Below, piece after piece: positions 2,606 through 5,643 of a stretch of 64,000 nucleotides of DNA. Each line of letters opens with the position of its first letter. Position 1 is the first letter of the stretch. A program made the position numbers and the translations under genes. The notes under the pieces are model-generated. The model had not been told where the DNA came from and did not search any database. It saw only the letters and a list, made by a program, of their open reading frames with translations. Origin of the DNA: Chloroflexota bacterium (GTDB lineage Bacteria; Chloroflexota; Dehalococcoidia; Lucifugimonadales; UBA3495); NCBI GenBank assembly GCA_022573285.1, contig JACZUF010000013.1, forward strand, positions 1-64,000, given 5' to 3'.

Positions 2606-3799
2606 TTAAGCCGCCTTTTCCGGTTCCCGCATGAACAGCCGAATCACCGACGCGGAGAATATCACCGCCACCAGGCAGAAGATTCCCACCGCCGAATACC
2701 CGCCGATGGCCAGGAACGCTCCGCCGCCGGCCGCCCCAATAAATCCGCCCAGCCGGTTGCTGGCGCCCATCATGCCCACCGCGGTGGCCCGGGACTGCCC
2801 CGCCACGTCGGTCGCAAAGGTGATGAACACCGGCCAGCCGATGCTCAACAGGCAGACCCCACCGAAGGCGATGGCGACCGTGGCCCAGATGGACGGGTCG
2901 ATGGCGAACACCAGGGTCGCCGCCGCTCCTCCCGCCAACGCGCTCCCGGCGGCGAAGTTGAGCCGGTTCCTGTGACTGGCAATCACGCCGGCCCATAGGC
3001 TGCCGACCACGGCGCCCGACCCCACCACCGCCAGGGGGACCGCGGTTTCTCTAACACTCATCCCGTAGGTGTCGATGAGATAGGCCGCGATGTAGCCCAA
3101 CACGGCGTAGAACACGATGCGCTGGGAAAGGGTGGCCAGCATCCCAAAGCGGAACACGGAGATTGAGCCAAGTTCCTTGAACCGGCTGAAATATGAGAAC
3201 GAGCGGGGACCGGCCGCCGGGCCTTTGGGATACCAGACCCAGGATAAGACAAAGGTGGCCAGCAACAGCGCTCCTAACACGACGAATGGGAGCCGCCAAT
3301 CTCCAACGCTGGCCAGGACCGCGACGGCGGGAACTCCGATCACCGCCGCCGACATCATGACGCCCTGGGCGGCCCCAATAGCCCGGCCTCGCCGGTCCGG
3401 AGCGACCACGTCGGTGATGGCGGCCATGCTGTTGGGCGGGATCATGGCGCCGCCCAGTCCGGTGCCGATGAGTAACGCCATAAGAACGAAGAAATTGGGC
3501 GCGAAGGCCGCGGCCAGGACGCATGTCCCCATCAGCGACAGGCCCATCAAAGCCACCGGACGGCGTCCGAAAGAGTCAGAAAAGGGGCCGGCCAACGGAG
3601 CGAAGATAGCCCAAGAGGCAAATGTGGCCGCAGCCAACTGACCGGCCACCGCCACCGAGGTGTCGAATTCTTCGGCAATGTCCACCAACAGCGGCCCCAG
3701 CATCAGGGCCACGGTGTTGTTCAGGAACAACGCCGCCGCAATGATGGCAAAGGTCCTCGCCTGGCCCGGCGCGGGAAGGTTTGCTGCTTCGGTGGTCAT
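2606..3799 (-). CDS. MFS transporter, drug:H+ antiporter-like (copy 2)
   Basis: The product is 397 aa with about 12 membrane helices. It is paralogous to the adjacent downstream gene, with DSFGRRPVALMG in the loop 2-3 position and LIGTGLGGAMIPPNSMAA as motif C. The ATG at 3799 gives a short polar N-terminus and then helix 1 (FAIIAAALFLNN). No strong Shine-Dalgarno sequence is visible. It is likely co-transcribed with copy 1. The pair could be separate exporters of related substrates, or a recent duplication for dosage. Confidence 0.88.
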   Translation of the reverse strand: MTTEAANLPAPGQARTFAIIAAALFLNNTVALMLGPLLVDIAEEFDTSVAVAGQLAAATFASWAIFAPLAGPFSDSFGRRPVALMGLSLMGTCVLAAAFAPNFFVLMALLIGTGLGGAMIPPNSMAAITDVVAPDRRGRAIGAAQGVMMSAAVIGVPAVAVLASVGDWRLPFVVLGALLLATFVLSWVWYPKGPAAGPRSFSYFSRFKELGSISVFRFGMLATLSQRIVFYAVLGYIAAYLIDTYGMSVRETAVPLAVVGSGAVVGSLWAGVIASHRNRLNFAAGSALAGGAAATLVFAIDPSIWATVAIAFGGVCLLSIGWPVFITFATDVAGQSRATAVGMMGASNRLGGFIGAAGGGAFLAIGGYSAVGIFCLVAVIFSASVIRLFMREPEKAA

Positions 3800-3899
3800 G
3801 GGGGATCGCCGGGCATGAGTCTCAATGCATATCCAGGGAAATGAGAAACGCGACGGAGAGAAGAGATCATTGCCCGGGTATCGGCAGCCGTGGTAGAGG

Positions 3900-3972
3900 T
3901 GGTGGAGCTGCGGCCCCGATCCCTGTACCTTCCCGATTTCATCGGGACGCTCTTCCAGGGAGCTATATGCCG
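3900..3972 (-). repeat. Degenerate tRNA-Ala-like copy
   Basis: On the minus strand this ends with CAGCTCCACCA, identical to the 3' end of the intact tRNA-Ala at 4229-4304. It keeps a D-arm-like GCTC/GAGC stem. The anticodon arm is replaced by the hairpin TCCCGAT-GAA-ATCGGGA, the T arm is lost, and the 5' acceptor strand no longer pairs. The stop codon of the GIY-YIG gene (3963-3965) lies inside it. It shares the hairpin-at-anticodon architecture of the tandem copies at 4305-4630. Confidence 0.65.
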
Positions 3973-4211
3973 AGGTTCAACTTGGATTCGAGGTAGGTGC
4001 GGCTCTTCCAAGATTTTAATTGGGATTCCCTTTTCCGTGCCTCAGATAGGGACTCAAATTCCTCTTGATGAATCAGCCGCCTAGGGCGAAAATTCTTTGT
4101 TGATCTGGTCATCCCGACGTTGTGTTGCTCGACACGATTCCGCATGTCGCCGGTGCTTCCGATGTAATAACGCCCAGTGCGTTCACTACAAAGGATGTAA
4201 ACATGAAACAT
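3963..4211 (-). CDS. GIY-YIG nuclease family protein, 82 aa
   Basis: This is a single-domain GIY-YIG protein of the short YhbQ/UPF0213-like type. The motif pair appears as VYIL followed by YYIGST. A conserved arginine (MRNRVEQH) and a C-terminal segment rich in basic residues (RKRESQLKSWK) also fit the family. It starts only 18 nt after the CCA of tRNA-Ala on the same strand, so it is probably co-transcribed with the tRNA. Its last codons run into a degenerate tRNA-like copy. The family usually nicks or cuts DNA. Whether this protein mobilises the tRNA-derived repeats around it is inference. Confidence 0.82.
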   Translation of the reverse strand: MFHVYILCSERTGRYYIGSTGDMRNRVEQHNVGMTRSTKNFRPRRLIHQEEFESLSEARKRESQLKSWKSRTYLESKLNLGI

Positions 4212-4228
4212 ATCGGAGATGGAGTGGT

Positions 4229-4304
4229 TGGTGGAGCTGCGGGGACTTGAACCCCGTACCTCTTCAATGCCATTGAAGCGCTCTCCCAGATGAGCTACAG
4301 CCCC
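4229..4304 (-). tRNA. tRNA-Ala, anticodon GGC
   Basis: The minus strand folds into a full cloverleaf. The 7-bp acceptor stem GGGGCTG/CAGCTCC contains the G3:U70 pair that marks alanine tRNAs. The anticodon stem CTTCA/TGAAG encloses the loop ATGGCAT, giving anticodon GGC, and the T arm is CGGGG-TTCAAGT-CCCCG. The CCA end is encoded. The length is 76 nt including CCA. Confidence 0.96.
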
Positions 4305-4630
4305 ACTGTTGAAGTATACCGGCCTGCTATTGGCTGCGGCCCCGATTTATTGGGAGAACCCGGTGCCTTCCCGATGTCAATCGGGACGCTCTCCCAGATG
4401 AGCTACAGCCCCACTGTTGAAGTATACCGGCCTGCTAATCGGCTGCCGCCCCGATCTATTGGGAGAACCCGGTGCCTTCCCGATGTCAATCGGGACGCTC
4501 TCCCAGATGAGCTACAGCCCCACTGTTGAAGTATACCGGCCTGCTAATCGGCTGCCGCCCCGATTTATCGGGAGAACCCGGTGCCTTCCCGATGTCAATC
4601 GGGACGCTCTCCCAGATGAGCTACAGCCCC
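4305..4630 (-). repeat. Tandem array of three 108-109 bp truncated tRNA-Ala copies
   Basis: There are three units: 4305-4412, 4413-4521 and 4522-4630. Read on the minus strand, each begins with a stretch identical to the first 25 nt of the neighbouring tRNA-Ala. The anticodon arm is replaced by a perfect hairpin TCCCGAT-TGAC-ATCGGGA. A remnant of the T arm (GGGTTC) and a second hairpin of the form CCCGAT-TT-ATCGGG follow. The second hairpin is intact in unit 3 and carries one change in units 1 and 2. Each unit ends with a TATACT-containing tail just before the next tRNA start. The T arm and acceptor do not fold normally, so these are not functional tRNAs. The listed ORFs 4290-4677 are repeat artefacts. 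Confidence 0.85.
4313..4318 (-). promoter_or_regulatory. Candidate -10 box (TATACT) for tRNA-Ala
   Basis: TATACT lies 8 nt upstream of the tRNA 5' end on the minus strand. The same box is repeated at the end of each upstream tandem unit. I see no good -35 box at 16-18 bp, so support is limited. Confidence 0.35.
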
Positions 4631-4725
4631 ACGGAAGCGAGAAGCGAGAAGCGATCAGCTATCAGCTTTCAGGCTGACTGACTGCCGCATATCAGGATAG
4701 CAAAACCGACTTCCAGGTACAATGT

Positions 4726-5643
4726 TTATCCCTCGCGGGTATATTTCACCACCCGGCGGCCACGGCCCCAATCGCCGGGCATCACCACGTACAGGTCCTT
4801 GTGGGAGTCGACCCAGATGCCGTGGCAGGAACGGTGCAGCATCTCTCCCCACTGGGCCAACCGCTCACCGTCCAGGTTCAATACGCTGACCAGACCGCCG
4901 TTGTGCTCGGGGATGTAGACGGTGTCCTCATCGTCAACGTACATCAGCGCCGGGCCGATGAGCTTGGTGGGCCAGGTCGTGATGTGCTCGCCGTTCTGAG
5001 TGAACACTTGGACCCGGTCGTTCTCCCGGTCGGAGACCAAGACCCGTCCCCGGCGGTCGATCCAAACGCCGTGGGGCAGGTTGAACTGCCCGTCGCCCGA
5101 CCCGGGGTCGCCCCAGGACATGATCAACTTGCCGTCCGGGGTGAACTTGTGGACCCGGGCGTTGGCGTAGCCGTCGGCGATGAATATCTCGCCGGCGTCG
5201 TTCACCGCGATACCAGCCGGCATGTTGAACGGCGCGCCGCTGTGGGTCACGCTGGACCAGGTGGTGGAACTGTAGTCGTCCTGGGCGACCCCCGTGTCCG
5301 AACGGACCCCCTCCTCGCCGATGGTCATCAGGAGTTTTCCGTCAGTGGTGAACTTGTATACCTGATGCTTGTTCCGGTCCACCAGCCAAACGTTGTCCTG
5401 TTTGTCCAGGTAAATGGCGTGGGCGAAGGAGATGATGCCCGCGCCCCAAGACGACACGAAATTGCCGTCCCGGTCGAAGATGCAGACCGGATGGTCCGGG
5501 TCGCGGTTGAAGCAGTAGACCCGGTCCTGCGAGTCGCCGTAGACTGCGGCGGCCGGCATCTCCCAACCCTCGGGCAACTTGGCCCAGTCTTCGTTCACTT
5601 CGTAGGTGTATTTGCCCGTGCCTACGGTACTCACTGTAGCCAT
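4726..5643 (-). CDS. NHL-repeat six-bladed beta-propeller protein, 305 aa
   Basis: The protein is built from repeated NHL-type blades with signatures such as FNLPHGVWIDRRGRVLVSD, FAHAIYLDKQDNVWLVD and MPAGIAVNDAGEIFIAD, each followed by a V-x-KFT-DGK strand. This is the fold of peptidyl-alpha-hydroxyglycine lyases, lactonase-like enzymes and ligand-binding propellers. No signal peptide is present. Its start lies 24 bp from the stop of the SMP-30 family gene, so the two are probably one transcript. The function is probably hydrolysis or binding of a small organic substrate, which the sequence does not identify. Confidence 0.85.
   Translation of the reverse strand: MATVSTVGTGKYTYEVNEDWAKLPEGWEMPAAAVYGDSQDRVYCFNRDPDHPVCIFDRDGNFVSSWGAGIISFAHAIYLDKQDNVWLVDRNKHQVYKFTTDGKLLMTIGEEGVRSDTGVAQDDYSSTTWSSVTHSGAPFNMPAGIAVNDAGEIFIADGYANARVHKFTPDGKLIMSWGDPGSGDGQFNLPHGVWIDRRGRVLVSDRENDRVQVFTQNGEHITTWPTKLIGPALMYVDDEDTVYIPEHNGGLVSVLNLDGERLAQWGEMLHRSCHGIWVDSHKDLYVVMPGDWGRGRRVVKYTREG

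Follow-up and report, generated by a model that had tools for sequence, protein, structure and literature searches.

We show that a GIY-YIG nuclease gene, a tRNA gene and a signature hairpin recur together in bacterial genomes, and we describe the anatomy of this arrangement, its association with tRNA and its presence or absence at one syntenic locus. As judged from sequence, the tRNA-Ala locus in a 64,000-nucleotide stretch of a Chloroflexota bacterium (GenBank assembly GCA_022573285.1, contig JACZUF010000013.1, positions 1 to 64,000; below, the window) is one case of this cross-phylum arrangement. It is probable, in our opinion, that we are dealing with a small mobile, homing-type element of tRNA genes organised around a free-standing single-domain GIY-YIG endonuclease, and that the tandem units upstream of the tRNA are its hairpin-tagged by-products and not RNA genes.

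The tRNA-Ala locus of the window

Read 5' to 3' on the minus strand, the locus consists of an upstream region, three units, the intact tRNA-Ala(GGC), the GIY-YIG gene, a 3'-type tRNA copy and an MFS-type gene (Table 1). The three tandem units of 108-109 bp, reported at 4305-4630 in the initial annotation, were confirmed by Tandem Repeats Finder (period 109, 3.3 copies, 97% matches, 4279-4632), but the further 3'-type copy and the nuclease had been missed. As was also claimed, the units open with the exact 5' part of the tRNA-Ala, identical over positions 1-26 in every unit, and the perfect TCCCGAT-TGAC-ATCGGGA hairpin follows where positions 27-43 would stand. The hairpin at the anticodon position was thus read correctly, but the change exceeds the anticodon arm, since the T-arm is altered too (a TCCC(A/G)ATA(A/G)ATCGGGG hairpin after GGGTTC, with a mispair in units 2 and 3) and the acceptor stops at CAGCC. 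The window contains five occurrences of the perfect 7-bp palindrome TCCCGATN{0,12}ATCGGGA, where dinucleotide shuffles lead one to expect 0.01, and a DNA search of the genome found no exact copy of the tRNA-Ala(GGC) 5' half besides those in the units. The TATACT box ascribed to each unit is present in each leader, but it is -10-like at most: a sigma-70 scan of 3880-4780 returned zero promoter-like sites, the TTGTAC-17 nt-TATCCT region and the TATACT boxes included, and a promoter of the units' own was rejected on this ground. Sequence comparison finds the TTGTAC-17 nt-TATCCT region kept in sister genomes, where it lies 5' of either the first unit or the tRNA.

Table 1. Features of the tRNA-Ala locus, positions as in the window
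Feature	Positions	Strand	Basis
Putative upstream promoter region of the tRNA locus, TTGTAC-17 nt-TATCCT	4685..4722	-	sequence comparison; function inferred
Unit 1, most upstream: body 4550-4630 (tRNA 1-26, hairpin 4587-4604, second hairpin 4558-4573 in altered T-arm, CAGCC), TATACT leader 4522-4537	4522..4630	-	sequence comparison, Tandem Repeats Finder
Unit 2, plan as unit 1: body 4441-4521, hairpin 4478-4495, second hairpin 4449-4464 with one mispair, leader 4413-4428	4413..4521	-	sequence comparison, Tandem Repeats Finder
Unit 3, adjoining the tRNA, plan as unit 1: body 4332-4412, hairpin 4369-4386, second hairpin 4340-4355 with one mispair, leader 4305-4320	4305..4412	-	sequence comparison, Tandem Repeats Finder
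Intact tRNA-Ala (GGC)	4229..4304	-	ARAGORN; Rfam 59.4 bits
Free-standing GIY-YIG endonuclease gene, 82 aa, catalytic domain only	3963..4211	-	ORF; Pfam PF01541
3'-type tRNA-Ala copy (positions 8-76), hairpin TCCCGATGAAATCGGGA at 3931-3947 in anticodon position	3900..3965	-	sequence comparison, ORF
MFS-type gene, next after the 3'-type tRNA copy	2606-3799		

The 3'-type copy mirrors the units: it is devoid of the 5' acceptor strand, begins at tRNA position 8, and its initial TAG doubles as the stop codon of the nuclease. The insert measures about 330 bp, and the GIY-YIG ORF is the sole gene between the tRNA and this copy. Its product matches PF01541 (2.5e-14) over residues 2-72 of 82, that is, a near-bare catalytic domain encoded outside any intron or intein; the nearest solved relatives by sequence profile are UPF0213 (1zg2, 1ywl) and SLX1 (7wme, 6seh). 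Among the window's genome (G000; other G numbers denote further genomes compared), G005 and G009 the nuclease appears constrained (dN < dS), a rough estimate with dS near saturation. A group I intron with a homing endonuclease was considered and rejected, the window having no Rfam match other than tRNA, no group I intron family among them, and the tRNA being uninterrupted. A phage or plasmid origin was rejected as well on the grounds of weak protein matches only; the phage-record search with the window protein gave six of these, T4 not among them.

In the genus the neighbourhood is shared, with an NHL-repeat gene 5' of the tRNA and, where readable, an MFS gene 3' of it. At this one syntenic locus the nuclease gene is present in G000, G005, G009, G010 and G011, whereas G004 and G007 have the tRNA and a locus otherwise empty. 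G009 and G010 possess the nuclease and the 3' copy with zero upstream units, the G010 nuclease being frameshifted; G011 has one unit and a broken nuclease, G005 two units and G000 three; G001 and G008 retain relics only, with the nuclease gone. The 5' fragments of the units are near-exact matches to the local tRNA, genome by genome, and in G009 the tRNA 3' end together with about 11 bp beyond it flanks the insert on both sides. Comparison of unit number among relatives had been proposed at the outset, with random decay and no conserved folding named as the outcome that would count against the units; the zero to three units and two degraded relics found among the sisters mean that this outcome is partly what is seen. 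The accompanying suggestion that the units are not just debris and could be landing sites went in the right direction, as they are part of a recurrent, apparently mobile arrangement.

Recurrence across phyla

A scan of named genomes with an alignment of five protein sequences yielded 72 loci. According to ARAGORN, a tRNA lies within 400 bp of the nuclease in 33 of them, on the same strand in all, while for a random gene a tRNA that near is expected by chance in about 1.6% of cases; the 33 include a few arm-replaced copies called as tRNA (L124) as well as L150, a distant locus that falls outside the clade. The tRNA types are Ala, Val, Asn, Pro, Ser, Gly, Glu, Met and Arg, and the phyla, about ten, are Chloroflexota, Patescibacteria, Acidobacteriota, Methylomirabilota, Thermodesulfobacteriota, Neomarinimicrobia, Elusimicrobiota, Bacteroidota, Saccharibacteria and Verrucomicrobiota. 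Partial tRNA copies accompany 26 of the 33 nuclease-linked loci, as compared with 4 of 35 other tRNA genes of the window's genome. The copies agree with the tRNA to about position 26 and resume at about position 44, with an unrelated hairpin between; in nearly all readable copies the replaced part is the anticodon arm, and a [T/C]CCCG...CGGG[A/G] hairpin stands instead. Thirty-seven distinct hairpins, collected by hand from the locus outputs, have an almost fixed CCG/CGG core, and their pairs 1, 6 and 7 vary with compensation. Within 400 bp of tRNA-linked nucleases there are 2.32 hairpins of this shape per kb, versus 0.10 per kb beyond 800 bp. Such arm-replaced copies were mislabelled by tRNA finders as tRNA-Ser or tRNA-Pro.

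One group of 43 rows in the nuclease tree (moderate support, 84/94, from a short alignment) contains 36 of the 37 tRNA-linked rows, and five of its seven other rows (L117, L127, L136, L144, L163) turned out on inspection to have hairpins in tRNA-like copies. Phyla are intermixed within this group, which suggests horizontal transfer. Since the arrangement is carried by named strains, Terrimonas ferruginea DSM 30193 and Polaribacter sp. BAL334, our reading can be tested.

Within the same order, 147 genomes were later scored by profile and fell into a high group of at least 92 bits, plus one at 74, and the rest at 67 bits or less. Inspection covered six high-scoring loci outside the window, of which G059 had already been met as L030 and L237 is the L105 locus, leaving four fresh ones. 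Hairpin-replaced tRNA copies are present at all four, in one case at tRNA-Ile, a new type, and in two no intact tRNA was called nearby; around ten lower-scoring GIY-YIG loci (3 kb each, about 1.5 kb either way) no tRNA was found. L247, a truncated lower-scoring copy that terminates in a hairpin-bearing tRNA-Asn-like copy, was added post hoc, and a count of 7/7 includes it together with the repeats; the fair figure is 4/4 versus 0/10.

Several loci in Patescibacteria have a more complex layout. At L116, in T. ferruginea DSM 30193, the tRNA-Pro by the nuclease has a GC-rich hairpin, CCCCGTCTTTGGCGGGG, as its D-arm, and the anticodon arm is not replaced. At L100, L102 and L104 (Patescibacteria, Methylomirabilis) the intact tRNA sits within a longer inverted repeat with the ends TC(T/C)TCGAT...ATCGGGA or similar. 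In the window's genome, L213 (contig C34, tRNA-Gly CCC) has a copy of tRNA positions 34-75 about 670 bp 3' of the gene, and small open reading frames lie in the interval.

Dispersed hairpins and competing explanations

The window's genome contains 84 copies of TCCCGAT...ATCGGGA and none of a reversed control pattern. In the 50 copies that were read, the hairpin often tips unrelated REP-like palindromes, the loop letters being typical of the family concerned. Complementarity between its flanks exceeds that of permuted flanks (0 of 2000 permutations). Hairpins exceed controls in most genomes that have the nuclease clade, the opposite being seen in, for instance, G083, and in the order the median is 42 hairpins in carriers against 2 in the others (p=0.0012, uncorrected for kinship). 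High counts are also met in genomes without the nuclease clade (186 in G109, 157 in G140), so that the hairpin may have a spreading agent of its own. Y1 (PF01797) transposases, which are known to mobilise REPs, were undetected in G005, G009, G025, G059, G100 and G149 and marginal in G000, and mobilisation by RAYTs was rejected on the evidence of these six element genomes.

A tRNA-Met array was also observed in the window's genome (L230, contig C41, about 3771-4100, reverse strand), where four tandem tRNA-Met-derived units of about 63 bp lie directly 5' of an intact tRNA-Met and the TCCCGAT...ATCGGGA hairpin replaces part of the D-arm. Downstream, HicB- and HicA-like genes (PF15919, PF07927) are followed by a 3' tRNA-Met copy into which a different hairpin is inserted; within 3 kb, a GIY-YIG gene was not seen beside this array.

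We propose that the nuclease, or the repair that follows its cut, would act either on tRNA arms or on the hairpin, that the tRNA halves would serve as homology arms steering the break to tRNA genes, that the intact tRNA carried with the element would preserve tRNA function, and that the hairpin would mark or terminate the mobile unit. Each 109-bp unit could then be a hairpin-tagged tRNA copy produced by one round of cutting and unequal repair, and the array, as a set of such leftovers, would be a by-product rather than an RNA gene. The hairpin itself may be a target of the nuclease, a resistance mark or a signature of another element. We may even suggest, tentatively and with somewhat less than an even chance of being right, that a short DNA hairpin is recognised by a minimal GIY-YIG nuclease, which installs it arm for arm in tRNA gene copies and at the tips of other palindromes, with guidance to new tRNA genes coming from the tRNA halves, a resident intact tRNA keeping the host alive and the hairpin spreading as REP-like repeats; this would constitute a new class of bacterial mobile element. 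The abundance of hairpins in G109 and G140, the nuclease-less tRNA-Met array, the D-arm case at L116 and the more complex Patescibacteria loci would speak against an element.

Some of these observations lend some weight to the idea that a separate REP-like hairpin family inserts into or replaces DNA hairpins, tRNA arms included, with the tRNA copies being ordinary tandem duplications and the GIY-YIG gene a repeat-favouring passenger: several unrelated REP-like families of the window's genome are tipped by the hairpin, the tRNA-Met array bears it with the nuclease absent, and there are more than 100 copies in some genomes devoid of the clade. We nevertheless hold this rather unlikely in view of the tight clustering of hairpins round the tRNA-linked nuclease in phyla with otherwise different repeats, the occurrence of the arrangement in high-scoring clade members while the lower-scoring GIY-YIG genes examined were without tRNA, and the Y1 transposases, undetected or, in the window's genome, marginal. 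Hardly credible is a conventional tRNA-integrated island, left after duplication of the tRNA 3' end by a site-specific recombinase and deletion of the remainder; duplicated tRNA 3' ends do flank the insert in the manner of attachment sites, but the nuclease gene is alone in this short insert, with no recombinase gene there, 5'-half copies also occur and bear a hairpin that the tRNA lacks, and an identical minimal layout is found in distant phyla.

An RNA interpretation of the units is unlikely. The tRNA-like RNAs or decoys offered in the initial annotation are not supported, and we find it very improbable that the units are expressed as small tRNA-like RNAs, or as decoys, and kept by selection. 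No unit was called as tRNA by ARAGORN or Rfam, and the predicted RNA folds are non-cloverleaf and unlike one another, and a functional tRNA-like RNA was rejected on these grounds; the truncated acceptor stem, the lack of a promoter-like match and the variation from no units to three, with relics, among sister genomes count against it too. The TATACT box of every leader, a unit folding energy below that of shuffles (z -2.1 to -3.7) and the compensating hairpin pairs among loci would favour such RNAs, but the hairpin is equally palindromic in dispersed DNA repeats, and its pairing therefore need not imply RNA function.

Relation to known systems

A mobile element of the kind we propose would join three topics that are usually separate, namely homing endonucleases, tRNA genes as insertion sites and dispersed bacterial palindromes, and would account for tRNA-like tandem repeats missed or mislabelled by tRNA finders. 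If the nuclease recognises the hairpin, bacteria would have a second route for the spread of palindromes besides RAYT transposases. In the open-access literature we found no earlier description of GIY-YIG genes on bacterial chromosomes that are accompanied by hairpin-replaced tRNA copies, and a 2006 survey of the GIY-YIG superfamily mentions tRNA in other connections only (PMC1564403).

By analogy, SegB of T-even phages may be taken as a tested precedent for tRNA amplification by a GIY-YIG enzyme. It is a GIY-YIG enzyme of a tRNA cluster (PMC13096335), experiments have shown that a tRNA segment undergoes tandem amplification only if the enzyme is active, and its motif RAWTSGAAC equals the T-loop sequence in reverse complement; in T4, segB lies between tRNA-Arg and tRNA-Ile (AF158101). 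Common to both systems is a free-standing GIY-YIG gene among tRNA genes, associated with many tRNA types. SegB differs in being phage-borne, in its gene length of 666 bp against 249 bp here, and in that the sections of PMC13096335 consulted describe neither arm-replaced tRNA copies nor a signature hairpin.

UPF0213 and SLX1 resemble our protein in being a minimal catalytic domain, SLX1 being a structure-specific endonuclease; folds that include structure-specific nucleases would fit an enzyme acting on hairpins. To our knowledge, UPF0213 and SLX1 proteins are not mobile elements of tRNA genes, and among sponge mitochondrial hairpins we know of no nuclease-linked, arm-for-arm replacement in tRNA copies. 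The latter repetitive hairpin-forming elements, as described in PMC2800124, are likewise small hairpins that apparently spread in a genome, but an organellar one.

REP/RAYT systems (PMC2817692) are similar in that a nuclease-type gene is flanked by palindromes also dispersed in many copies, with palindromicity maintained by paired changes. RAYTs, however, are Y1 (HUH) transposases with GTAG-type heads, whereas here we have a GIY-YIG protein, a TCCCG/CGGGA hairpin and flanks of tRNA copies. Standalone GIY-YIG genes without tRNA were also encountered (for example L050 and L052 of the window's genome, L079, L083, L094, L240 and L255); a repeat common to both near flanks occurs in 17 of 32 such genes versus 1 of 32 for the farther flanks (Wilcoxon p=1.7e-5), and these flank repeats recall REP-flanked RAYT genes.
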